Of a stretch of DNA of 64,000 bases, positions 12,874 to 36,475 are shown in pieces (within the stretch, counting starts at the first letter, position 1; each line of letters starts with the position of its first letter). The position numbers and the translations under genes were made by a program. The notes beneath the pieces are model-generated. The model was not told the origin of the DNA, did no database searches, and saw nothing but the letters and a program-made list of their open reading frames with translations. The stretch is from Eutypella sp. D-1 (Eukaryota > Ascomycota > Sordariomycetes > Xylariales > Diatrypaceae), in contig JAJTTP010000001.1 in the NCBI GenBank assembly GCA_023313575.1, positions 930,001 to 994,000 on the forward strand. Direction: 5' to 3'.

Positions 12874-15800
12874 CTAAAACCCCCACTGCTTGCACCAGTG
12901 AACCATCAACTCGGGCGTCACGGCCCGCGCGGTGCGGATGGCGGGGCTACGGGCCTTGGCACGGTCGACATCGAAGACGACGGGCGTGCGGCCCGCCTCG
13001 TGAGCCGCCGCCATGCCGCGGTAGAAGTCGAGGAGCTTGACGGCCGGGTTCTGATCGAGGTCGCGCGCTTCGCCGCTGCCCTCGGTGTCGCCCTGACTCT
13101 TCGCCAGGAGATCCACCCACTCCGCGAAGCTCACCAGGCGCGCGATGCGGTCCTTCCCGTAGAACTGCTGCACGGCGGGCGCGAGCTCGGCCCACGTCGT
13201 CGCCTGCGGGTTGACGGCGTGGTAGTAGCCCGGGATATCGTCGGGGGAGACCTTCTGCGGGTCGGCGCCGGCGCCGAGGACGTCGAGGACGAGGCTCGCC
13301 ACGCGCTCGCAGGGCGTCCAGTCGACGCGGTCCATGGCGCCGAGATCGCGGGGAAGCGTGCCGAGGCGGCGCGCGCTGCTCGCCACGATAGACGGCAGCC
13401 ACTCGTGACGGTTCCAGGCGCCGGCGTCGGCCTCGGGGCCGGCGATCTGTCCAACCCTAACAACTGCGGCCGGGAAGTCGCCGATCTTCGCGGCGTCCTC
13501 GAGAATCAGCGAGCCGATCATCTTACTCTGTCCGTACCCGGCAAGCGCGAGGCTCAACTCCTCGAGTCGCTTTTCCGGGACAGGGCCGCGTGCCGCCGAG
13601 TCCCAGTTCTCCACGGTGCCGATGGAGGATATGAAGGCTACAGCGACGCGCTTCGCGGCGAGGGTCGCAAAGTCGGCCACGCAGCGCACGCCCCGCAGGT
13701 GAGGCTCGAATGAATCGACGGGCATGTTGAAGTTGACGGGCCAGGCATTATGGACCACACGGTCGGCCTCGCGCAGAAGTCGGTCGTAGACTCCCTCCGG
13801 CAGTCCGAAATCTGGGCGCGACATTTCGGCGCGATAGAACTCCGCCTTGCCGGTCCAGTCGGCCACGAGCCCGCGCTCCTTCATGTTGTTCTCCTGGCGT
13901 TTCGCACCGCCGTCCTCGTCTCGGTTGAGGCAGATCACCTTCTTTACAGCAGGGTTCCTCACCAGCTGGTCGAACATGTAAGAGCCTAGCATGCCCGTGG
14001 TGCCAGTGATGATTACTGTCTGCCCCTCGGCCAGGGCCTCAGGCCTTCGAGCATCCCGCTGCGGTGCCTGTAGGTCTCTGGTGTATTTCTGCCATAGCGA
14101 CTGCATGGCTTGGATCCCATGCTCCGCTTCGCTCGCGTCGGTAGACTTTCCACCGCTGCGTGCGGCTGAGAGCAGGTATCGTGCCAATCGCCTGGGTGTG
14201 GGGTTTCCATAGATGACACGAGTGGCTATCGCGGTTGCGTCGCCGTCGTATCCAGCAGCCTCGAGACCATATTTCAATAGCCGCGACGCGTTGATCACCT
14301 GCAGTGAATCGACGCCTCCGGCAAAAAAGTCCTTGTCTGGGTCGAGCCCCTTAGCTCCCAGCTGCGTGTGGAACATCTCAACGATCGAATCAGCCAAGGC
14401 CTCCTCTGAGTCCACGTTGATGTGCGGAACTTCGATATCCAAGGCTTGGCTCTGCTCGTATATCTTGTCGATCTCCTCCTTGTAGAGCTGGACCGTCGCG
14501 GCCCTTTGTATCGAGCCCTTGCCCGCGCGAGGGAACGGCTTGTCAGGGTTAGAAATCATGATGAACTGACGGGCGATCTGGCCATGGGCAACAGTCTCTT
14601 TGTTGGCTTGCACCACAAGAGGCCAAACCCTATCGATGAACTCCTGGGCTTCCTGCTCGCTTTGCGGGTGTTTGACAGGCTCCAGGATGAGAGCGGGATG
14701 GAAACGCTCAGTACCCACCACAATAGCCCCCTTTATTTCGGGATGACCGTGAACGATGGCCTCTATGGTGACGGGATTCAGCTTCTCTCCGTTCGAGAAA
14801 ACAATGATGTTATCGGATCGGCCGTAATAGGTCCAGTTGTTCGGGAGCTCAGGGTGCGGCAGGAAGAGGTCTTTCGTGTCCCATTCGTCCACTATGATGG
14901 TTTGAATCAGCTCGCGTTCACGTGGTAAGCCTAGAAGCTAGGCGGTCCAACTTACACTCAGGGAATACGTAGAAAACGCCCTGCAGGCCTGGGTGCTTTC
15001 CCTTTCGCTTAATCACCATCCTGTACGTCTTTCCGTCCTCGCTCTGGCGCCAGTCTATCCCTGATAGTTCGTGGTTTACGAGGAAGTAGTTCCAGAGCTC
15101 AGGAGGCTGCTCATAGACCATCGGTGGGAAGCTCCTAATTGTTGATGGTTAGACCTCAATCACTGACTGTTAACCGGAGAACACCCTTACTCGGTTGACC
15201 CTATAACGTTACTCATTTTGACGCCGTGCTGTACAAGTCTGTTTCCAGGTTCCGTTGCGAGGTGCGCTATAGCTTTGTCAGCAGCCTTGCCCATATATCT
15301 TCATTAGTAGCGTTCACTCACAGCCACCGAACGCGACGATCTTCAAACTCGCCAGGATCTTCATCCGTTCCGGATCGTGACTTATCTCCTCGAGTATGAC
15401 GGCGGGGAGAAGCGCACTGTCAGCTCCCGAGTGGACAATACTGTCAATCGCTACCTCCGCCGACAGCGGTCTACTGGCTATGCCGAGGGCCACGGGAGTC
15501 CCCCAGTATATGACAGAATTGAGGAATACGTATAGAGCGGCGGCGTGGAAAAGGGGCACTGTAGATCCGTTAGCCTCTTGCCCGCCAGCAAATTGATGCC
15601 GATTGGTGCTTCGCGAGCGTGCGCGCCGGGGAACTTACTCGGAATGAAGTGCTTCACGGACACTTCCTCCCAGAAGCGGAACCAGTACCTCCTGCCATTC
15701 CAGTTCGGGACATTATGGGTGCCATCGCAGGTGGCGAACATGCCTTGCGGAACCTCAATCGGCTTAGGGAGACCCGTGCTGCCGCTCGTGTGCAGCACGA

Positions 15801-22264: not shown

Positions 22265-23230
22265 TCATGTACGTCCTCTCCTCTCCGCCATGGCAAGCCC
22301 GAATATCTGCCACGTCGAGAAACACTGCGCAAACCCCCAAACCATCAAGATCAACGGCGTCGCGATCTGAAACCCGCTATCCCACTTCCACCAGGATTCT
22401 CGCAACAGCCACGCGCTGATGGCCATCTCAACCGCCGTGCAGCATGAACACCAGGCTGCACAGAAGAACAGGGCTCTGTACACCCATCGCCGTGGGCGGC
22501 AACTGCTACCAACACGATCAGCGCGGTCTCTGCCATCCACCGCCCGGTAGAGGATCATGGCCAGGTGAACCGGGAGCTCCGACACCACGTCGAACGCGCC
22601 CCATATGATACACATGTAGAACTCGATGGTCGCCTGCTGGTTGGCCTCGGGGTACGCCGACAGTGCCATCCCGAGCTGGGCAACGGCCAGCAGCACGACA
22701 TGGTGCAACACGTTGATGTAACTCGCCAGGCTGGCCCGGTAACTCAATTCCCAGGTGTAGTAGGCGCAGTAGAGCTGGCCGGCCACGAGCAGCACATCGC
22801 CTATGGTAATACCCGCACCCATTCCGCCGGTCCCTCCACCCAGGGGCGTGCGAAAGCTGTCCGGGCCGGGCGACACGAGTCGGAAGAAAGGACCGGCGCA
22901 GACGCATAGGAGCACGATCTTGAAGAAGGCGGCCAGGTGGTGGCACACGAAGCCCCGGCGGCGGCGCTCATTTCCGTCGATCACCGCCGCGTCGATAAGT
23001 CCGCGGTAAGTTGCTCCGTAGACGGTTTCGAGCACGAGTTTTTCGGCCAGATAACAGGTCGCCACGACGAGGACCGCACATATAACAAATATGAAAGCCG
23101 ACCAAGGTTGCAGGTCTGACACTCCGCTATTGCCTATTAAGTTGAGCTTCGATCGCTCCGTAATGGTCGGTTGGGCTCCGTCGTTGGCCGCCAGCTGCAG
23201 AGCTGGGCTGAATATATCATATGCCCACAT
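22265..23230 (-). CDS. multi-pass membrane protein of unknown function
   Basis: A single exon encodes 321 residues with about seven hydrophobic segments, near residues 42-65, 96-118, 139-163, 169-190, 199-228, 248-273 and 286-314. Two His pairs occur at segment starts (CHH before segment 2, LHH in segment 4). These and the size loosely recall TLC/Lag1-type membrane proteins, but no diagnostic motif was certain, so no function is assigned. Many Cys residues sit in segment 6. The start at 23230 gives a short non-signal N-terminus before the first span. It lies 1.2 kb from the peptide precursor on the same strand, so a transport or maturation role in that pathway is possible but unproven. Confidence 0.7.
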   Translation of the reverse strand: MWAYDIFSPALQLAANDGAQPTITERSKLNLIGNSGVSDLQPWSAFIFVICAVLVVATCYLAEKLVLETVYGATYRGLIDAAVIDGNERRRRGFVCHHLAAFFKIVLLCVCAGPFFRLVSPGPDSFRTPLGGGTGGMGAGITIGDVLLVAGQLYCAYYTWELSYRASLASYINVLHHVVLLAVAQLGMALSAYPEANQQATIEFYMCIIWGAFDVVSELPVHLAMILYRAVDGRDRADRVGSSCRPRRWVYRALFFCAAWCSCCTAVEMAISAWLLRESWWKWDSGFQIATPLILMVWGFAQCFSTWQIFGLAMAERRGRT

Positions 23231-24430
23231 CCTCTAGGTAGGTAGCCTTGTTGTTTTGCGTATCCAGCGGCGAGTATGGACTTGATTTTCGGATGATATA
23301 CTGTAAGTAGACTAGAAGGGAACTTGTATAAAGCATTAGAGATTCTCGAATAGCTTTATACGTTAATAAAAACGAGGCCAGTAGGTTAAGTTAGTAATCT
23401 AAGTGTTTGAGTCCCGGATGAGTTCGAAGCACCGTTGGTATGTATGTAGGTAGCACGCCGCTCGTCCTATATATAAGGTTCGTGAAGGGCAAGAGCACAA
23501 GATGTTACTTTGTCACTACAGCCGTGTGCGACGCGGGTGGCATTTACTCTCAACAGTACATACAGCACTGCGGAATAAGCAATATTTAAGTTCAGTAACA
23601 GTTCAATGCATATGGTCTACACCAACTCTGTCACATCTTCTTCTACAGACGGTAACAAACTATATTACTGACCTTTTAATCTGTTTAGGTGTAAGACTTT
23701 CATAGCGTCCAGGCAACGAGCATTCTATTTAAGTAGCAACTACCTCATCATCGGGCAAGCCTACCTATGTATACGAACATTCATGCAAATCGGTCCTAAT
23801 CCCCCAGATTCAGATGCTGCGATGTGGAGGCGTTGAGAAAAAATTCAGCTACGAACGAGCCCATTAGCAGAAATCGCCAGCCACAATGGACGACGAGTAG
23901 CGAAGGCCTTTAAATCCTGACGCGGCAGGTTCTAAGGTTTGGAACAGCTTTCGCAGACTAAAACCTACTAACGTAAGCCCCCTTTCTAAAAAGCAGCTGA
24001 TGACAAGGCCTACCTGCAGGCAACAATTTAAAGTCAAGGTCTGCTTCCTGCGCGAGAGTGAATCTTTTTTAACCGTCGGGTATGCAGAACCGTTACCAGC
24101 CGCCGTATCCCCTCCATTCAGCTATGATACGCTTCTTGAGGCCTCCCGGCTCTCTATGCAGGGTTGAAGTATAATGGCAGGGACATTGTTCTCGTACTTG
24201 CAACGGAGCTGTCACCACTGGTCTTGATTTTACATGGCAGAAGATGTAGAGGAGATACTTCTTAGATTGATCGCTGGCCAGCTAAAAGGAAAGACTATCT
24301 AAGATGGACGATATCCTATATCCTTTTATATTCGAAGGGGGTACCACCAAAAAGTGGTGATCGCCACGTGACCTTGATCAGTGGAGGTCTGTTTATCCTT
24401 GGAATGAGGCTTAGGGCTAGCCCTAGCCAA
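23231..24430. other. spacer
   Basis: Promoter of the membrane protein and 3' region of the peptide precursor. Short frames only, none with a recognisable motif. Confidence 0.5.
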
Positions 24431-24788
24431 TTAGGCATCCTCATCCTCCTTGTTCAGGATGTAAAGTATCCCGGAATAGAGGTCGCTGTCGCTAGCGTCC
24501 TCGTCGCGGGTATCCAGCTCCTCCGCCTCCCGCCTGCCGATCGAGTACCGGAGCGTGCTGTAGGCATCCTTGTCGACGGCCTCGCGCTTCCCATCCGGCG
24601 TCATCCTGTTGGCGAGCAGGTTGGGCGTCTCATCGCGCTGCATGTCTGCCGGACAGAGGCGTTAGAAATACAGAGTGGACATGGACGAAACCGCTGCGCG
24701 ATATGTATGGTTACTTACGGTTCTCCACGGGCGCGGCGATGACGCTGGCCAGCAGGCTAGCTGCGATGGATAGTTTGAAGAAGAGCAT
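24431..24788 (-). CDS. secreted Kex2-type peptide precursor (candidate RiPP precursor)
   Basis: Two exons (24788-24719 and 24645-24431; 73 bp intron GTAAGT...CGGCAG) give 94 residues. Residues 1-19 are a clear signal peptide (MLFFKLSIAASLLASVIA, cut before APVEN). Dibasic sites follow at KR 43-44 and RR 61-62, both followed by EA, as in precursors cut by kexin and trimmed by a dipeptidyl peptidase. Residues 50-60 (DAYSTLRYSIG) and 78-88 (DLYSGILYILN) are an imperfect repeat of pattern D-x-Y-S-x-(L/I)-x-Y-x-(I/L)-x. There is no Cys, so it is not a usual disulfide effector. Tyr-Ser-Ile-Gly before RR resembles the Tyr-Ala-Ile-Gly core before KR in ustiloxin precursors. A UstYa-family gene lies 2.4 kb away. 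Gene and secretion are firm; RiPP function is inferred. Confidence 0.82.
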
Positions 24789-27225
24789 GTTTTCTTTTTC
24801 GGGATATTCTAACGAGCCCTAACTCAAAGCGAGGCGAAGCAACTTTTATGGAAGTACTTGGAATGCCCGGATTGCTCAGGCCTGAGGGTTGGAGAGATAG
24901 ACAACGAGGAGAATTTCCCTGGCTCTGTAAGCCACTTATATACTCGTAGATAGCTTCCACATATGGAGGCAAAGACGGATTTCCGGATTGCTATCCCGTA
25001 TAGTCCGGTCGGGAAGGAATGGGGAAGCAGAATCTCCGATTGAGCGTGGTCTCTCAGTATCACGGGTTACAGGGATGATAGTCCTTGGGGTGAATCTCTC
25101 GCCGCCATCGACATTGTAGACTTCGAATAATTCTCGTGCGTCACGGACAGTGTTAGTCCGCCTGGGGAACCCTAGACAGGAGCTCCAACACGTCTCGTAG
25201 ACAGCATGAAAACTCCGGAGTAGAGCACGGCTTGTCCCGTCTACCCTACACCAATTGGAGGGGCATCAGTGAGCTGCCTTTTCAGGACGATACTATTAGA
25301 GCTTGGTATTCCAAGCAGCTCGATTTGTTTAAGCTCTTCATTAAAGGTCTAAGCAGCTTTCCGCCTCTCGCATACTGACCGGGTCTGAAAAGAAGGGGAA
25401 AGCCGCAAGCGACGGACACCAAACCTAGTGGAGACCTATGCCGTGGGACTATCTATGTGAGAATATTGCACCTAATTACGAGCGCCGTCGTCTATAGGCA
25501 ACGGGCCATAATACCCCTTATTTTCTGCGGGACCTGGGGATAAGAGCCCCGGTGGCTTGACGCCGGAAGCGCCCCGATATCACTAATCATTATTATACAC
25601 AGCCAGATAGAATATCTCTCGGATCTCCCCGTATGCCTTCCAAGGACAAGTATGTTGATCTGTCCACGTGTGACCCACACTTATACCCTGCTCCCCTTAT
25701 ACATCGTCGATCTTTACATCGAAGGGAACACTCCTAGGTACCCCACGGCTGGGCTTGCTAGGCCAGCTTACCGGGATAGACTCGGTCAAGGCCTGGACGT
25801 CTTTATTCCATTCAAGGGTCCTCTATGGTTACTTCTATCGCACAGCGAATTAAACCTATATAGATGGTCCAAATCCAAGCGCTTGCATACACGATTTCTA
25901 TGGGAGGTGTAGGAGTTCCTCATGCCATAGGTAAGTAGCCAAGATTAAAGATAGCCAGAGGGTCATGAAGTCTTCAGGAAAAAGAATATATGATAGGTCG
26001 TACACCGAAATGTGACGATGTTGGCGCCAATCATTCTATAGGGGCTTCGTCCAGTAATACTTGTCTTGGGCCCATACGCAAGTTCACGGTCTTAGCTCGG
26101 CGATCCATTCATCGGGCTAGGCACGAATATGATGCTTTCCATTGACATATGTACCGGAGAAGTTAGAAATTGATGGCAGACTTGGAACTAGGCATCACCG
26201 CCACCCACTTTGGCTTCATATCTTTATGCGAAAAGAGAATGCATCTAGTTCGTGATTGTGAATCCAAGTGGGTGGGGACTAATACGCTTTGGTCACCGTC
26301 CCGGTGGCTTGGGAGCTTATAATCTTTGTTTTAATGTAGGGCCGTATCCTCAAAAATCCCATCCAAAAATCGGTGTTTCTGGGGACGTAATTCAGGGTTT
26401 GACGTGGTACATCGTGGCGTGGGTGCTTGAGACAAGTTCTCCGCATTCATTCACCTCCGTGCGGTGGGATCCCCACTGTAGTATTCCCCTCCAAAGCAGC
26501 TAATGGGACAACGCCCATCGCATCCATGGGCTCCATGATACAAGCTCCGCTCGACTATCGCAGATAAGGCAGGACTTATTGGATGAAAACGAGTTCTCCA
26601 AGAACCTTGCGCGAATCCGGTTCTGCGAGGAACCGATCACATGCACGGCACGACAGAAATACGGACAATGCCGTTTTATGGGTACCAGGGTCTCGAAGAA
26701 GGCCGGGTGGTCCCGACCCTGCCGGCCCGACCCTCCCAATGTCCGGAAGGGACACCGCTTCCAATTGCCCCCCCCCCCCCCTCTCCAACCTGGAGCCGCG
26801 TCGCATAGTCCTACGCGGGGTGGAAATGGATGACTTATATCCAGTACTTAGGTAGATAGAAGGCAGCAGGCAGCAAGCTTACTATATTACTATAGCGGAA
26901 AGGGAATGGTACTCACAGCCACCCTTCAGGGGACCGGTGTCCGGACCATTGAGGAGGGGTGCAAAGTCATCGCTTATCTTACGTTATACTACACCTGAGC
27001 GAATCTTCAGGTTACGCCTAACCTGTCCCTTTCCTCCTTCGAACAAGCTGGACATAGATAAGCCTAATCACCCACCGACCGTAACTGCATGCCTTGTTCC
27101 GGTGCGGGGCTAACTGACCAGGTTATATCAAGGAAGAAGCCGAAATTCCCAGTGTTCGATCATTTTAAAACCCCATTCACAACCCCATCTTCAGCAAGAA
27201 CGGCTCCCAGTTTGGGGCATGATCC
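24789..27225. other. 2.4 kb shared upstream region of precursor and UstYa-like gene
   Basis: The precursor (minus) and the UstYa-like gene (plus) face away from each other across this stretch. No intact gene was found inside it. It contains a TATA box for the precursor (listed), a run of about 13 C near 26768-26780 and several short frames without motifs. It is a plausible place for shared regulatory sites, but I could not identify any. Confidence 0.5.
24935..24943 (-). promoter_or_regulatory. TATA box of the peptide precursor gene
   Basis: On the minus strand GTATATAAG lies about 147 bases upstream of the precursor ATG, at a spacing compatible with a strongly transcribed secreted-peptide gene. 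Confidence 0.45.
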
Positions 27226-28222
27226 ATGGTCATGGGCGGCGTGAGGATGTTGACCGGCCTTTTGCATGATCAGGAACTCTCGTGGGGAGACACGAAGTAC
27301 ATCGAGACTAGAGAAGCCTTGCTTGGCGAGGAAGAGTCGAGCGCGTCGCGCAAGAAGCGGCATAGAAACTGGACGATCCTCACGATATTCAATGCGCTGT
27401 TTTTCACAGGAGCCGTCGCGCTATGCGCTATAACATGGGGGAAGTACTCGGGGCGGAACTATTGCCTCAAGGTAACTTCAACATACTGTATGTTTCTCGT
27501 GGTCTAAACGGCCTCGAGGGCTCCAGATTGATCCTTGGTGACTAACATTCATCTACACGCGTGTAGCTCCCGTTCTCGAAGAGGTCGACATGCCTCTAGT
27601 CAACACGGTATTGAACGGAAGCCTCTGGATCGGTGATAACCCTTCCGTGTGGCGAGGCTCGCCTGAGTCTGCGGAGACGAATGAGGCCTGGGAGAGCTTC
27701 GAGAGAGTGAAACCCATTGCTCTGACCAAGGCCCAGATTCTAGCAATGGGCAAAGACCCTGCCACTGCCTCGAAATTCAACGACGACTACTGGCATATGG
27801 GCGACGACGCCTATGTAGGCGCACTGGACATCTTCCACCAAATACACTGTCTGAATGAGCTTCGGCAGGCGGCTTTCAGCGACTGGGGCCGCGCCGGCAA
27901 GAAGATTCCCAAGTGGGACGACATCCACTGGGTTCATCTACGACACTGCACCGACATGCTGATGCAGAACCTACTATGCAATGCCGACGCTGGCTTCTTA
28001 ACATACAACTGGGTAGAGCAAGAGTCCCACCCTTTTCCGGACATGAGCGTGCACAAGCAGTGCAGAGACTGGCGGCAGCTGGTCAAGTACCGCGACGAGC
28101 ACGGCGTCGATGAGCAGACCTACATCAACTGGAGGAAGCCGGGTGGTATAACGCAGCTGCAGCACCCAGAGGAGTATTGGAAACACCGCGGTGAAAATGA
28201 CAGTCCTCACCACAACAAATAG
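27226..28222 (+). CDS. UstYa-family oxidase (DUF3328)
   Basis: Exons 27226-27487 and 27567-28222 with a 79 bp intron (GTATGT...GTGTAG) give 305 residues. The N-terminus is cytosolic and charged (ALLGEEESSASRKKRHR), followed by one membrane span (WTILTIFNALFFTGAVALC, about residues 49-70). The splice creates STYSPVLEEV, matching the conserved YSP motif just after the membrane span in this family. Both hallmark metal-binding motifs are present: HQIHC at residues 178-182 and HLRHC at 211-215. Proteins of this family catalyse oxidative cyclisation of core peptides in ustiloxin, phomopsin and asperipin biosynthesis, or halogenation/oxidation in other clusters. The nearby kexin-type precursor gives a natural substrate. 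The start could also be Met at 27232 or 27247. Confidence 0.93.
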
Positions 28223-31180
28223 AGGGGGGTCAATAGGATTTGAAGAGCCAAAAAAAAAAAGGACGCAAACATCGATTAGCATATGATTTTACGACAGTAT
28301 AGACCACTACAGGTGAATTCTACGTATCACTTATTTCACGGGTAGTCCCTCTCCCTGTCTCGTGCTTGAGTAAAGCTATATTCAAGAGGTCCCTTCACGT
28401 GTGAGAATGTGAAAGCCACGCGTATCCATGGCTGTTACTTCTAGTAGTCCATGCTCCTACGTGACATCCGTGACTAATGGAGTAAAATATGAACTAATGC
28501 TCCCTAACAGCCACAGACGTTAGCATGTGCCATTTTTCCCGTGAGAGTCTGACTAAGATACTTACTCAGCGACGGCCACCTAAGCACTGAAATCGTGAGA
28601 TTGTGAAGATTGTCGTGCGACATAATATCTTACGGCATCGCCAAGGTCAGTCTATGCGGGTGCTTTTCGCAGTGTTTCACCTTAATGGACAATGTGCGCC
28701 TGGAAGTTATCTGCATCTCATGTTGTAAACTTGCTGATAGTAGTGGCCATATTGACACTGACACACACATGTAATGTATAATGGCAACATACGATTGGCC
28801 TAATGGGCTATAGAGTAGGGCCTCAATTATGAATAAAGGTATGTATGATCATTGTATACTGAATAATTATGCCCGTCGTTAGAAGATACGACGTGCAGCG
28901 AGAGACGCCAGGAGGTCACTACTGGGTAGCTGTCCAGTATATGATGGAACGCGAATGTGTATTGAACAATGCCCCCTTTTTTGAAGGTAGGGCAGGGCGC
29001 TCGTACTTATAGGCATTCGAGTTCAAGGATACCGTAGATAGGGGTCAGGTCCGTGCCAGCGCCATCGCCCCTTATTTCAGGGCCTTTGACATATGTCAAT
29101 GTCGTCCCCTCCGATTATGTACTTAGCATCTAGAATGACGGATGGTAACAATTACCTTGGACGCTTGGGCTTCTATCAAAAAGAAAATTAGGTAAAGACC
29201 TTTGTGACCCGCCGACTTCCACATCGTCGAGTGCATCGCAGTCCTCTGAGGGGCTACAATCTGCCTTCCGTTCTGTAGACGACAGGGATGAGAACGCTGT
29301 GATGACGCAATTGTAGAGCGTAGCCAGTCCGGCTACCAGTCATCCTACTCTAACTTACAAGTCTTGCCAGGTACTACAATACCTAAAAGACCCAGGTGCT
29401 GTGGCGCTCTTTACAAGAGATCTGAAGGCTTTAGGTAATCAGTACTAAGTAAGATGGAAACCCTGGAATGCGGTAGTACTTATCGATGACGAGCCACAGT
29501 GTGGGCTATTAAGCCATTAAAAGTGATTAGTCCCCTCCCCGTTGATGCTGAGTAAACGACCCGCCCTCGTGGTTCACTCAGGTCCGCTTTCGGCGACATA
29601 GCCTCCGAAGGTGATAAGTGCTCTAGCTCTCGAAGTTCTCGAAATAGAAACAGAAGCGACTATACTAGGCTTGTTCGATCAGGATATTTGATATAAACTC
29701 GCCTCCCATGTCAATGCCCTTTATGTGAGTGTCTCGGACGTCTTACCATTCCTCCCAATAGAACCGAAATAGAGGGTAGGCTATACAAGCAGACTGGGAC
29801 GCCTTTGAAGCAATGGACTTGATTTCGGAGCCCATACTTCTTGACTGACCCAACGTAACACTAAATATATCGCATCCATATTTCGGGCACCATCATTTAT
29901 CCTCGTATTATACAGAGTTAAATACCTCCTATCCGAAATCGGACTGAAGGGATGTGGCGCGGTGTTGGAAGAACCAAGACGAGACCAAACCGGAAACAAA
30001 CGGCGCATTTTTATCTTATCAGATCCGAATCTCGGCCCCATATTTGTTGGATTGTAGATCATGGATTATTCTGGCGAATCCGGAGCGGCGCATCTGTTTC
30101 TTGCCCCTCCACCCCCCATCTTTGCTCTTTGCTCCGAGCACCACCAACCACAAAGCCCAAACGGCGCCGGAATACCATACCATAAACAGAAGCCCACAGC
30201 AGAATTTTCTCTTGCTAATGCACTCATCGTACCCAATGGGATTACGTATTAGGCCGGCACGCACCTGTTAATTGGCAAATCATTTACGAGAGTTCCGACG
30301 GTACGAGTTGTCTATCCGGGTCCCTGTTATGCAGAACCACATAGACCCAGCCAAACGATACTGCAGGGTATACGAAGACCTACTAACATATTTTTGACCA
30401 TGTCGGCCGTGAATGGAATTATGCTTTCCGAGCTGATGGAGAGATCTTCATAAGACAAGCGAGGATAACCTGATATTGTTCCAGGCTGGTCTTGAAGCGG
30501 CTCAACGGCTATAGAGCGTCCAGCGCTCCCACCTGACCAGTGATACCCACTATGCCGGAAGAATTAACCTCGTATGCCTAAAATATCGCTAAAGCAAGAA
30601 ACATCAGTAGCCCCTCGGTAGCGTTACATTCCCTTTACTTCGGTGCGAAACTAGACGATGCTTCTGTTCAGCTGGAACCTCGGTCAACATGGCTACCCCT
30701 GCAGCAGCCTTCGGCTCTGCCAGCCAAGATAATTTATCTGATCCCTTATAGTTATCTGATCCGGTCTTTTGTGGGGTATCTACCATGCCGGTCCCATTTT
30801 CGCGGTATCCGTCCGCTCCTAATGCAGGTTGGGAGCACCACCCACACCATCAAGAGCCCTTGAAGCCATTCTCGTCATCGGCCACAAAGTTGCAACGGTG
30901 GGCCAGCCGCTGATGGGCCCCCTGCATGCCCAGCATGAATAAAACGGCTTCGCTATGTGATTCTGCGGGCTTTAACTGTAGGGACTCGGCTGGAGTCAAA
31001 TGCTCCTGTAAAAAGATTCGTTCCGAACCTCTCCAACTCATACTTCCTCTTACGGATTTTCCTCTCCAATCTTTATTGCTTAAAGAAACGACCCCAATAC
31101 GTGCGTGAACTGCATGCATCTACGTCGATCAGGGTAGCATCTGCACATCTTTTCCCCCAAATTCATGAGGCACAGTCGCC
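28223..31180. other. 3 kb spacer upstream of the NRPS
   Basis: Downstream of the UstYa-like gene and upstream of the NRPS. No gene with family motifs, splice signals or a plausible start was found on either strand. Confidence 0.5.
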
Positions 31181-34100
31181 ATGGACCCTAGCGACCCAAA
31201 TCATTCCGCTATAGACGCTCATCAGACCGATGATGCGAAATCTATCAGCAATATATCAACGCCTCCGACGGAATTAGAGGAGGAAACCCTTCCGAGAGAA
31301 CAGCTGGAACAGATATGGGAATGGAATACTCCGCTACCGCCTACGTTGGAGATATGTATGCACGATTTAGTGACTGAACAGGCCAAGAAAGAACCGACAC
31401 GGCAGGCGATACAATCCTGGGACGGCGACTTCACGTATCAGGATATTGACTCTAAGTCGAATCAACTTGCGGCGCACCTAAAATCGTTAGGTGTTGAGGT
31501 CGGATCTAATGTTCCCCTATGCTTTGAGAAATCGAGATGGACGGTTGTCGCCGTGTTAGCTGTTATGAAGGCTGGGGGGACATTTGCCCTCATGGATCCC
31601 AGCCAGCCGGAGGGACGGTTACGTACGATCGTGGAGCAGACTGGTGCCAATCTTATTATCACATCGAAACTTCAAGAGGAGCTAGGCCTCGCGATCGCGA
31701 ATGGCGCAACGAGAGTAACAGTATCAAGCGATTTCTTCATCGACAAAAATTCCACCCACGACTTAGACGCGGTGCCCCCGAGTACAAATCTATACATTCA
31801 GTTTACCTCCGGAAGCACGGGCAAGCCCAAGGGTGTAGTCATCACCCACGAGAATTACACCAGCGGCGCGGTACCTCGCGCGGACATTGTCGGGTACCGT
31901 TCACACTCCCGCGTTCTGGACTTCGCATCCTACGCCTTCGACGTCTGCATCGACTGCATGTTATGTACCCTCTCCGTCGGAGGCTGCCTGTGCATCCCGT
32001 CGGACGAAGATCGCGTCAATGACTTGAGCGGCGCGATCAGGAAGATGAACGTCAACATGGCCCACATGACTCCTTCGGTAGCTCGTGTACTAGACCCGGA
32101 CATCGTACCATCCCTCGAAGTCCTCGGGCTTGGAGGAGAGGCAATCTCTGCAGGCGACGCCGCGAAGTGGAGTAGCACCACGAAAGTCATCAACGCGTAT
32201 GGCCCTTCAGAGTGTACAGTCGGATGTGCTGTTAACGGTGACGTGGGTGCTGAGAGTACGAAGCCACAGGTCAGCATCGGCCGGGGCGTCGGCGCCGCCC
32301 TGTGGATCGTCGACCCCCTCGATCACAACCGTCTCGCCGCTATTGGAACCGTAGGCGAGCTCCTCGTCGAAGGCGCCATAGTCGGCCCTGGATATATCGG
32401 TGACCCTTCGAAGACGGCTGAAGTGTTCATTAGCGACCCTCGGTGGCTCCTAGCTGGCAGTCCGAGACATGACGGCCGAAAGGGGCGTTTGTACAAGACC
32501 GGCGATCTCGTCAGGTATGACACGGATGGAACCATCGTCTTCGTCGGAAGAAGCGATCAACAGGTCAAGTTAAGAGGCCAGAGGATCGAACTGGCAGAGA
32601 TTGAGTATCACATGCGCGACAAACTACCGCCTGAGACTCGTGTCGTTGCCGAAGTAATACAGCCAGGGGGCTCCGCTGGTGAGCCGACCCTGGTAGCGTT
32701 CATCGCGGAAAAGGCCGGTTTGGTCAAGGAAGCGGACACTCTGTTAGGATCATTCTCTGCTCCCCTGAAAGATTCACTTGCGAATATGAACCAGTTCCTC
32801 GCCAAAAACCTCCCAATATACATGGTACCGGCAGCGTACATCCCACTACAAGTTATGCCACTCCTGGTTTCAGCCAAGACTGACCGAAAGCGCCTCCGTG
32901 AGCTCGGCTCCTCGCTTAGCAGGAAGAACATCGCTAGCTTTGCAGCAGCAGCGACAGAGAGGAGAGAACCGAGCAGTCCTATGGAGAAAGCCCTTGCCGA
33001 AGTATGGAAGCAAGTCCTCGGTTCTGAGATCGAGGTTAGTGCGAATGATAACTTCTTCGTGTCTGGTGGCGACTCGCTGCGTGCAATGAGGCTTGTTGCT
33101 GCAGCGCGCGATCATCATATCGCCCTTTCCGTGGGCGAAGTTTTGACACATCCTGTCCTTTCCGATATGGCTCTCGTGGCGAAACCTCACTCTGGAGATT
33201 CTATCGGAGAGCTTTCTCCCTTCTCTCTCATCGACCAAAAGTGGACAGCAGAGACTGCACGCGTCGAGTGTGCCTCTCTTTGCGGAGTCGATCCATCCCT
33301 TGTCGAAGACGTGTATCCGTGTACTCCGCTCCAGGAAGCTCTCATGGCACTGTCCGCCAAAGTCAGCGAGGCTTATGTTGCACAGCGTGTCGTTGAGTTG
33401 CCTGATGAGGCTTCGGCAACCAAGCTGCAAGAGGCTTTCAAGGCCGCATCGGTTGACTGCCCTATTCTGAGAACTAGAATCGTTCAGGTCCCCAGGCATG
33501 GCCTCATGCAAGTGCTCGTGAAAGACGACTTCGACTGCCGATCCCAGCCCGGACAGAATTTGCAAGAATACCTTGTGGCGGACCGCAACGAACACGTGCA
33601 GCTCGGTAAACCCCTGGTCCGCTATAACGCGATGAGTAATGAGACCGATGGAAAGTCGTACTTCGTGTTGACGATGCACCATGCGCTCTACGATGGCTGG
33701 TCTATGCCTCTGGTCGTCGAGCGAGTAAACAGGGCATATAATGGCCTTTCAACTCAAAGACCAGCCGATTTCAGGCATTTCATCAGATACCTTGGAGAAA
33801 TGGATCGAGGCGAGTCGGAAAGCTACTGGAGAGACCGCCTAAGTGGAGCTATCGGCGAGCAGTTCCCTCCTCTTCCTTACGCCGGCTACCAGCAGCAGGC
33901 AGATTCCCTTCTTGAGCACTACGTTCATACCGGAAGACCGATGGCCGGCTTCACGATCGCGACAGCTATCCGAGGTGCATGGGCTCTCCTCGTATCACAG
34001 TACACATCTTCTAACGATGTCGTATTTGGCGAGACCCTTACTGGTCGGAATGTCCCTGTTCCAGGTGTAGAGCAGATTGAAGGACCAATGATCGCGACAG

Positions 34101-36475
34101 TCCCCGTCCGTGTCGCGGTAGACCCAAGCGCTAGCGTCAGCGAATACTTACACGAAGTCCATAGCCAGTCTGTGCTTGGCATTCCCCACGAACACTTCGG
34201 GCTTCAGCACATTCGACGATTGAGCCCCGATGCACGCGAGGCTTGCGAGTTGAGAACCGGTCTTGTGCTGCATCCAAACACCGACGAGAGCGAGGAGACG
34301 CCGAGGGACAAGCAGCCTGCCGACGGCTTTGTTCCAGCTGGAGATGCAGAGGCCGCAGAGGAAGCATTGAAGTTCAACACCTACGCGCTAATGCTTGTGT
34401 GCTCTCTGGACGCTGAGGGATTCCTGATCATGGCTAGCTTCGATTCCAAGACTGTAGCCAGTCCACAGCTACAAAAAATGCTTACCCAACTGGGTTCGCT
34501 CGTTCAACATTTCTGTCAAAACCCAGATGCACCCGCCGGGGACCTCGAACTACTGACTGAGCAAGACGTCACAGAGTTGGCCCGACTGAGCAAAGAAGGC
34601 GCCGCCAATTTGAGCACGCCTGATTTGATACCAAGCTCCGCCAATGTGATTGGGACATGGCTTGCCGACCCATCAGACATTGAGCGTCTCGTCCCATTCG
34701 GCGGTGTTGGTGAACTCATCTTGCAGTGCCAAGGGCCTAACGATGGAGAGTCGATTAGTATTCCTGGATGGCTACAAGATCCCCAAGATAGCTGGCTTTC
34801 CCGCACGCGGAAGCTTGCGAAGTATAACAACAATGGGCATCTCGTTTTTGTAGAACGGAGAGTACAAACGGAAATATATCGGCCTAAGCGGACGCAGAAA
34901 CACGTTTCCCTTACCTCCGAGAAACAGAGAAGGCTACGGCAAGCGTGGAGCCACATAATAGGGGCTGGAGAGGATGAGATCGGGTTAAACGACAGCTTCT
35001 TCCAGCTCGGCGGCGATTCTATCGGGGCCATGAAGCTCGTATCAGAGCTTCGTGCAGAGAACCTAGAGATCACGGTTGCAGAAATTTTCAAGCACAGGAC
35101 CCTCTACGACATGGCCAGTGTGATAAGAGAAGTGGCACCTGCCAAGACTACCGCAACGATCGACCACGCAGTCCCCTTTTCTTTGCTTGAGGGAGCAGAT
35201 CTACAGACATTCATCACAGAAGGGATCCAACCTTTCCTCGCCCTTCAGAATACCCGGGTTCAAGATATACTGCCAGCGCGTCCCCTCCAACAAGTTGCAG
35301 TGAAGGGTACCGTGCAAATGCCACGATTCTCGTCGCGATATGAGTTGTTCCACCTGGAAGGCTCCGTAGACACAGCGCGTCTATTCAGCAGTTGCCAAGA
35401 GCTCGTTGCGAGGAATGAGATCCTGCGGACTGTCTTTATCGAAGAGGCTGGCAAGTGTTTTGCGGTGGTTCTTGAGGAACTGAAAGTCGCCATCGAACAG
35501 TATGATATCGAGGGTGATATCGACTCTTTTACCCACAAACTCTGTGACATGGATGTTCAGACCAGGATGCCTCTGGGCTCTTCATTTGTCAAATTCATGT
35601 TCGTCCAGGGTGAGGGAGGTCGCAGCTGTCTGATTATCCGCATCTCCCATGCCCAATATGATGAGATCTGTCTTGTGAGACTCCTACGCCAGCTGGCAGA
35701 CATATACGAAGGCCGCACAGTCGTAGACACCGTTCCCTTCTCGTCGTTCGTCTACCATGTCATGAAGAAAAGCATCCCTCAAAGCATCCCATACTGGAGA
35801 GATCTCCTGAAGGGGTCTTCGCTCTCGGTTCTACGGCCAGATATACCACTATCGTCCCGGATACCGGCGGACATCACGCGAACAGTCGATATCTCGGCCC
35901 GTCTGAGGGATATTACCATCGCAACTTTGCCCACTGCAGCATGGGCCCTTTGTCTCGCGCGGCGCCTCTCGTTGAGGGACGTCGTGTTTGGCGAGGTCGT
36001 TAGCGGTCGTAACCTCGACTTCCCGAACGCCGATGCCGTCATGGGGCCGACTTGGCAGTATGTGCCAGTGCGTGTCAAGTTCGAACAAGGCTGGACTGGA
36101 GTTGACCTCCTCGACTACATACAATACCAGCACATATCCAGCGCCCAGCATGAGTGTATGGGCCTCGCAGAGATCGTGCGGGATTGCACAGACTGGCCAG
36201 CAAACATCGACTGGTTCGACTCGGTCGTTCACCAGGATGTGTACCATGTGGAGGAGTTGAAGTTCGGCGGTGCCGGCTCCCGGATGGAAACGGTGTACCC
36301 GCACTACGAACCGCTGCGGGAGTGGAAGATCCAGGCTTTCGTTAAGGGCGATAGCCTCGCCCTAGAGGTCGTTACATTCAGAGATTGGATTGATGTGGCA
36401 AAGGAGTTGCTTGACGATCTGGTGGGAATTATGACACAGTTGGTCGAGAGGCCGAGCGAGCCACTCTTCAAATAG
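31181..36475 (+). CDS. non-ribosomal peptide synthetase, A-T-C-(A fragment)-T-C
   Basis: One uninterrupted frame encodes 1764 residues. Domain order: adenylation, with FTSGSTGKPKG near 207, NAYGPSECTVG near 342 and YKTGDLVRY near 440; carrier, FFVSGGDSLRAM with Ser near 630; condensation, HHALYDGWS near 832, an intact HHxxxDG motif; then only the last part of a second adenylation domain (about 1150-1236, PFGGVGELILQ...LAKYNNNGHLVFVERR); carrier, FFQLGGDSIGAM with Ser near 1281; and a second condensation domain whose active-site motif is SHAQYDE, so degenerate at the first His and the Gly. One intact A domain with two C domains implies iterative use or loading in trans. The layout recalls NPS6/SidD extracellular-siderophore synthetases, but no ornithine monooxygenase or acyltransferase is nearby. 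No thioesterase or reductase domain. Product unknown. Confidence 0.93.
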   Translation: MDPSDPNHSAIDAHQTDDAKSISNISTPPTELEEETLPREQLEQIWEWNTPLPPTLEICMHDLVTEQAKKEPTRQAIQSWDGDFTYQDIDSKSNQLAAHLKSLGVEVGSNVPLCFEKSRWTVVAVLAVMKAGGTFALMDPSQPEGRLRTIVEQTGANLIITSKLQEELGLAIANGATRVTVSSDFFIDKNSTHDLDAVPPSTNLYIQFTSGSTGKPKGVVITHENYTSGAVPRADIVGYRSHSRVLDFASYAFDVCIDCMLCTLSVGGCLCIPSDEDRVNDLSGAIRKMNVNMAHMTPSVARVLDPDIVPSLEVLGLGGEAISAGDAAKWSSTTKVINAYGPSECTVGCAVNGDVGAESTKPQVSIGRGVGAALWIVDPLDHNRLAAIGTVGELLVEGAIVGPGYIGDPSKTAEVFISDPRWLLAGSPRHDGRKGRLYKTGDLVRYDTDGTIVFVGRSDQQVKLRGQRIELAEIEYHMRDKLPPETRVVAEVIQPGGSAGEPTLVAFIAEKAGLVKEADTLLGSFSAPLKDSLANMNQFLAKNLPIYMVPAAYIPLQVMPLLVSAKTDRKRLRELGSSLSRKNIASFAAAATERREPSSPMEKALAEVWKQVLGSEIEVSANDNFFVSGGDSLRAMRLVAAARDHHIALSVGEVLTHPVLSDMALVAKPHSGDSIGELSPFSLIDQKWTAETARVECASLCGVDPSLVEDVYPCTPLQEALMALSAKVSEAYVAQRVVELPDEASATKLQEAFKAASVDCPILRTRIVQVPRHGLMQVLVKDDFDCRSQPGQNLQEYLVADRNEHVQLGKPLVRYNAMSNETDGKSYFVLTMHHALYDGWSMPLVVERVNRAYNGLSTQRPADFRHFIRYLGEMDRGESESYWRDRLSGAIGEQFPPLPYAGYQQQADSLLEHYVHTGRPMAGFTIATAIRGAWALLVSQYTSSNDVVFGETLTGRNVPVPGVEQIEGPMIATVPVRVAVDPSASVSEYLHEVHSQSVLGIPHEHFGLQHIRRLSPDAREACELRTGLVLHPNTDESEETPRDKQPADGFVPAGDAEAAEEALKFNTYALMLVCSLDAEGFLIMASFDSKTVASPQLQKMLTQLGSLVQHFCQNPDAPAGDLELLTEQDVTELARLSKEGAANLSTPDLIPSSANVIGTWLADPSDIERLVPFGGVGELILQCQGPNDGESISIPGWLQDPQDSWLSRTRKLAKYNNNGHLVFVERRVQTEIYRPKRTQKHVSLTSEKQRRLRQAWSHIIGAGEDEIGLNDSFFQLGGDSIGAMKLVSELRAENLEITVAEIFKHRTLYDMASVIREVAPAKTTATIDHAVPFSLLEGADLQTFITEGIQPFLALQNTRVQDILPARPLQQVAVKGTVQMPRFSSRYELFHLEGSVDTARLFSSCQELVARNEILRTVFIEEAGKCFAVVLEELKVAIEQYDIEGDIDSFTHKLCDMDVQTRMPLGSSFVKFMFVQGEGGRSCLIIRISHAQYDEICLVRLLRQLADIYEGRTVVDTVPFSSFVYHVMKKSIPQSIPYWRDLLKGSSLSVLRPDIPLSSRIPADITRTVDISARLRDITIATLPTAAWALCLARRLSLRDVVFGEVVSGRNLDFPNADAVMGPTWQYVPVRVKFEQGWTGVDLLDYIQYQHISSAQHECMGLAEIVRDCTDWPANIDWFDSVVHQDVYHVEELKFGGAGSRMETVYPHYEPLREWKIQAFVKGDSLALEVVTFRDWIDVAKELLDDLVGIMTQLVERPSEPLFK

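Follow-up and report, generated by a model that had tools for sequence, protein, structure and literature searches.

A short kexin-type precursor gene beside a UstYa gene in Eutypella sp. D-1: a candidate low-copy dikaritin-type locus

Introduction

Does a short, secreted-looking gene product with two dibasic sites form a working RiPP pathway together with the single UstYa protein encoded next to it, or is the proximity of the two genes incidental? The question is raised by a locus of Eutypella sp. D-1 lying in a 64,000-nucleotide stretch of DNA (hereafter the window; positions 930001-994000 of contig C1), for which a first-pass annotation had proposed a dikaritin-type locus. We analyzed this locus against the background of the whole genome (48.5 Mb, 72 contigs). 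A literature search found no paper joining Diatrypaceae with RiPPs, nor YSIG with ustiloxin.

Results

The precursor gene occupies positions 24431-24788 of the minus strand and encodes 94 aa in two exons. Splice enumeration places exon 1 at 24719..24788 (minus strand; 70 nt, i.e. 23 codons and 1 nt), and its product appears signal-peptide-like and hence secreted-looking as judged by hydropathy, the top hydrophobic 10-mer covering residues 8-17. A predicted intron of 73 bp follows (24646..24718, minus strand; GTAAGT...CAG), and among the enumerated splice pairs this donor has one acceptor only that reaches the open exon-2 frame. Exon 2 (24431..24645 including the stop, minus strand), which is backed by its codon score and by the relatives P0001 and P0002, supplies a pro-region, a KR-EA unit ending in YSIG-RR, and an acidic tail that starts with EA and carries a second YSxxxY segment. 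The protein contains neither Cys nor Trp, and EA directly follows each of its dibasic sites, KR43-44 and RR61-62. The first-pass description of a Cys-free, secreted-looking precursor of 94 residues with KR and RR sites followed by EA was thus borne out by translation and splice enumeration.

With a codon table trained on nine window ORFs with Pfam support, the exon-2 frame had the highest mean codon score (0.38 bits, taken on the open frame 24434-24661) of all 298 ORFs in the window that are 60-95 aa long, the runner-up being an ORF antisense to the NRPS gene (0.23 bits). Among 2,600 ORFs of at least 40 aa from the window and 14 further loci, two [KR]REA motifs occur solely in the precursor. 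Y-x-I-[GP] lies at most four residues from a dibasic site in three of these ORFs and immediately before one in the precursor alone; the other two ORFs have negative codon scores. No paralogue besides the precursor gene itself was found in the genome, and a genome search with P0002 as query gave one further match (E 0.127). The two Kex2 units of the precursor align as D-x-Y-S-x-x-x-Y (shuffle test, p 0.0009 with the EA ends and 0.003 when these are left off; for unit similarity in P0002, p 0.019). An internal-repeat reading of the precursor was considered on this ground, and we take its two-unit nature as suggestive at most, because the unit similarity score of 33 is equalled by 8 of 1,463 control ORFs. 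Highly repeated cores are absent from the precursor, which has at most two diverged units; in this respect the locus departs from the dikaritin type that had been proposed for it, whereas the kexin-type precursor, the UstYa gene and the YSIG core agree with that type.

The UstYa gene (27226-28222, plus strand) is divergent from the precursor gene, and the intergenic region of 2,437 bp (24789..27225) agrees with the 2.4 kb given earlier. Translation and homolog alignment assign to exon 1 (27226..27487, plus strand) the N-terminal part with a hydrophobic, membrane-anchor-like stretch; the predicted intron (27488..27566, plus strand; 79 bp, GTATGT...TAG) restores on splicing TSTYSPVLEEVDMP, which matches the homolog consensus, and exon 2 (27567..28222, plus strand) contains both HxxHC motifs and the PF11807 match. 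The product of 305 aa carries YSP, HQIHC and HLRHC. A profile check of the exon-2 frame against PF11807 (UstYa/DUF3328) gave E 3.9e-45 and 154.8 bits, confirming the assignment as a UstYa/DUF3328 protein with both motifs and YSP. Nine positions are invariant in 53 aligned UstYa sequences, among them H99, H102, C103, H132, H135 and C136, which make up both HxxHC motifs, and in a confident AlphaFold model of the frame 27542-28219 (plus strand; mean pLDDT 87.3) the motifs lie on two long, consecutive helices (97-111 and 127-147). No solved structure was related to UstYa by sequence up to E 10, and a fold search with the model found none at E <= 0.001 (70 matches at E <= 10, the best 0.28). The pair of precursor and UstYa gene is real, as seen from its layout, from the genes themselves and from the residues kept in relatives.

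Between the two genes, no ORF enters the greedy codon-score list; UstYa exon 1 is likewise absent from that list, so a short exon may have been overlooked in this region. The same region holds no direct repeats of at least 14 nt and two inverted pairs of 14 nt at 86%, and a scan with bacterial patterns, which say little about a fungus, gave 1 promoter-like site (2.9 expected) and no terminator-like site. About 1.2 kb past the 3' end of the precursor gene lies a hydrophobic ORF of 322 aa (22268-23233, minus strand) with no Pfam or NCBIfam match. Other neighbours in the window are a carboxylic-acid-reductase-like protein (12877-14937, minus strand) with AMP-binding C-terminal, carrier and NAD-binding reductase domains, a PHB-depolymerase-like esterase and a glycosyltransferase. 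An NRPS with the domains A-T-C-T-C, which resembles fusarinine C synthases, is encoded at 31169..36475 (plus strand). The genome has 20 tyrosinase matches, none of them in the window, and no methyltransferase was seen among the 34 window ORFs scanned with Pfam, a scan of open frames that passes over short exons; the earlier statement that neither gene type is adjacent holds to this extent.

A search of 5.8 billion proteins with the precursor (E <= 1, shared 5-residue words required) found two relatives, P0001 (70 aa, 97%) and P0002 (86 aa). Both begin at the ATG just 3' of the intron, where a gene caller blind to the intron would start them, in line with the prediction that gene finders would easily miss a gene whose first exon has only 23 codons. 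The relatives have in common KREAVDKDAYS[TL]L[RL]YSIG and [KR]REAEELDTRDEDASDSDLY. P0002 differs from the precursor at 16 of 69 aligned residues and by an in-frame insertion of 17 residues immediately after YSIG; since 12 of the 16 changes sit in the last 14 aligned residues, conservation extends over the unit ending in YSIG and the acidic stretch but not over the tail. Conservation of the dibasic sites and Tyr segments, on which the first-pass annotation had staked its proposal, is therefore partial: YSIG is present in all three sequences, but in P0002 it is followed by KN instead of RR, with RR and KR occurring further on, and the second Tyr-rich segment is not kept.

Linkage of the two genes in relatives was likewise found in part. 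P0002 and the UstYa cluster P0003 occur on two contigs each and have an identical longest contig of 55,733 bp, so that they are probably on one contig, and linkage of precursor and UstYa probably recurs in one relative, as read from the table of contigs. The representative of P0003 is 99% identical to the window UstYa (3 differences in 210), and the linked member may be less alike because P0003 is a cluster at 90% identity. On the other hand, the protein search found no precursor relative in those Hypoxylaceae that have a UstYa of roughly 60% identity.

The genome contains 21 PF11807 matches, which we grouped by reading into 11 loci. At six of the ten other loci a kexin-type precursor and a UstYa match lie no more than about 4 kb apart, and no such precursor was found at C6, at either of the two C23 loci or at C12. 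The pair in the window is thus not a lone oddity. Multi-unit precursors occur at three loci (C45, C13 near 133 kb, and C5), and precursors with two units in the open frame seen at C34, the start of C13 and C28, so that four of the seven precursors beside UstYa genes, including that of the window, have two units or fewer in the frame seen.

Individual precursors differ widely in their units. The one on C45, at about 1.4407 Mb (L012:3724-4533), has 11 PAYVWAS units; three UstYa matches accompany it, the closest some 4 kb away. Two further multi-copy precursors near UstYa matches have five QYSP[AS]ALR units (L019:3763-4059) and five NPDYIYTDV units (L021:6187-6756). The kexin precursors by UstYa matches that show two units in the frame seen (L014:8167-8457, L018:1910-2053 and L024:4597-4995) stay under the usual three-repeat threshold. 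On C12 (2.680-2.700 Mb; L023 and L025) there is an ustiloxin-like set comprising UstYa, a tyrosinase, an FAD monooxygenase, an O-methyltransferase and an MFS protein. No YXIX precursor was seen there in a simple scan of 39 kb, by which a spliced or diverged precursor could have been missed.

A detector for adjacent similar units was applied under one scheme to 1,514 ORFs of UstYa loci and to 1,463 control ORFs from 125 kb; of this control DNA, unrelated stretches account for 50 kb and the flanks of C12 for 19 kb, the rest of the window supplying the remainder. At a unit score of at least 45, a cut-off chosen after the scores had been seen, 8 of the 1,514 ORFs near UstYa loci were retained and 0 of the 1,463 controls; the eight are six precursors and two overlapping frames of the same repeats. 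At cut-offs of 40 and 33 the counts were 11 against 2 and 12 against 8, respectively.

Discussion

We favor, with a probability of roughly 70%, the reading that the locus is a low-copy dikaritin-type RiPP pathway in which precursor and UstYa are the minimal working pair. It draws on the PF11807 protein with its invariant HxxHC pairs, on the anatomy and codon usage of the precursor, on relatives that keep the YSIG unit, on a linkage that probably recurs and on the precursors at six of ten other UstYa loci; YSIG, moreover, fits the YXIX core rule set out in PMC7329392. It is weakened by the unrepeated cores, by KN after YSIG and the diverged tail in P0002, by the Hypoxylaceae in which no precursor relative was found and by the lack of a tyrosinase match in the window. 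From the cleavage sites and the family we infer processing, chemistry and product as follows. The precursor would enter the secretory pathway via its signal-peptide-like start, Kex2 would cut after KR44 and RR62, and the EA ends would then be trimmed. With its two HxxHC motifs forming the centre, UstYa would cross-link the unit DAYSTLRYSIG. The bond could run from Tyr57 to Ile59 inside Y-S-I-G, the arrangement of ustiloxins and phomopsins, or else join Tyr52 to the Tyr57 region. The second, fast-changing YSxxxY segment in the acidic tail could serve either as a further core or as a spacer. The product would probably be a small secreted cyclic peptide for signalling or chemical interaction. A bolder version, which we consider doubtful, is that a conserved YSIG unit and a hypervariable second Tyr unit are cross-linked by one UstYa without a tyrosinase to give a new ring scaffold, that low-copy precursors are common and invisible to repeat-based mining, and that the ustiloxin-like cluster, seemingly devoid of a precursor of its own, may lend help in trans.

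Other explanations have to be weighed against the proposed minimal pair. That the precursor ORF is a chance frame, UstYa alone being a real gene, is scarcely credible: the precursor is short, its intron is predicted from sequence and only two relatives of it were found, yet its frame is at the top of 298 ORFs by codon score, a consensus splice donor joins it to a signal-peptide-like start, and the relatives keep the flanks around an in-frame insertion. The small gene could also encode a linear secreted peptide, or a small acidic secreted protein that is signal- or effector-like, with UstYa acting on another substrate and its position being incidental. The fast divergence of the tail and the UstYa orthologs of Hypoxylaceae without a detected precursor relative would suit this explanation, which we nevertheless think unlikely given the probable recurrence of linkage in one relative, the Tyr in the units and the kexin-type precursors at most UstYa loci of the genome. 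Furthermore, fungal alpha-pheromone precursors have repeats containing Cys/Trp, unlike the window precursor, which is free of both residues. A linear peptide would be in keeping with the survey in PMC7329392, where a DUF3328 gene was near just 22% of kexin-repeat proteins (KEPs). In the same survey the DUF3328 count peaks right beside the KEP gene.

UstYa could also be a tailoring enzyme for the NRPS, a role that DUF3328 proteins play in the cyclochlorotine and astin clusters, since the NRPS frame starts only 2.9 kb past the UstYa stop and DUF3328 proteins are described from NRPS and polyketide pathways in PMC12048977. However, among the best 120 of 6,709 NRPS relatives three are named fusarinine C synthase, and among the matches listed close full-length relatives are found throughout Xylariales, the closest named species being Diatrype stigma (77%) and Monosporascus (74-76%). 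In addition, the longest contigs for UstYa and NRPS differ in 11 of the 11 named species present in both searches, a comparison which covers UstYa species with an NRPS match among the 120 listed and which is weakened by fragmented assemblies. A tailoring role for UstYa is thus disfavoured and in our view very unlikely, and the NRPS is probably a neighbour outside the pathway. Processing of the precursor in trans by the ustiloxin-like enzymes of C12 seems equally far-fetched: the gene content of C12 without a YXIX precursor seen in its 39 kb, and the YSIG core at a locus without a tyrosinase, would fit such an arrangement, but a UstYa gene adjoins the precursor in the window and C12 may have a spliced or diverged precursor of its own.

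If the precursor and UstYa gene do act as a minimal pair, they are of interest not so much for an exotic mechanism as for indicating that precursors of this kind can be short and almost free of repeats. This suggests that repeat-reliant searches overlook part of this natural-product class, and a UstYa-guided search with splice-aware and low-copy criteria should find pathways now missed. The window pair is also a small system in which UstYa chemistry that apparently does without a tyrosinase can be tested.

Comparison with known systems

A DUF3328/UstYa protein with two HxxHC motifs, the current class-defining dikaritin enzyme according to PMC12048977, is encoded in the window, and a Kex2-site precursor, secreted-looking by hydropathy, lies 2,437 bp from it; of the tyrosinase and methyltransferase of the older cluster definition, the first has no match in the window and the second none among the 34 window ORFs scanned. 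According to PMC7329392, ustiloxin, phomopsin and related precursors (type G-10) seem to have YXIX as their core; this type includes N. crassa POI2, which is needed for perithecial development. The window pair shares with this type the signal-peptide-like start, the Kex2 sites, Y-x-I-G before a dibasic site (as YSIG-RR, the dibasic site directly after YSIG being absent in P0002) and a nearby UstYa, but has one YSIG unit instead of many repeats and no tyrosinase in the window, whereas the first ustiloxin intermediate is described as needing UstQ (a tyrosinase), UstYa and UstYb (PMC6514808). The whole-precursor search, set against the YXIX type, returned P0001 and P0002 only; since it needs shared 5-residue words, distant homology may still exist. 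With KEPs the precursor has in common a secreted-looking start, dibasic sites and short units, but the kingdom-wide survey asked for three or more tandem repeats, each 8 aa or longer, between Kex2 sites (PMC7329392), and with two units at most the precursor falls short of this. A parallel is provided by two lichen families of UstYa clusters, described as having no repeat-bearing precursor, for which a single core is offered as a possible reason (PMC12048977). Asperipin-2a (aprA/aprY/aprT/aprR; PMC6514808) differs in its core, FYYTGY as against the YSIG unit, and in its isoflavone-reductase-like and transporter genes, neither of which was found among the 34 window ORFs scanned. It shares with the window pair, however, a single UstYa homologue beside a kexin-type precursor with several Tyr, and in asperipin-2a both ring closures are ascribed to that one homologue (PMC6514808).
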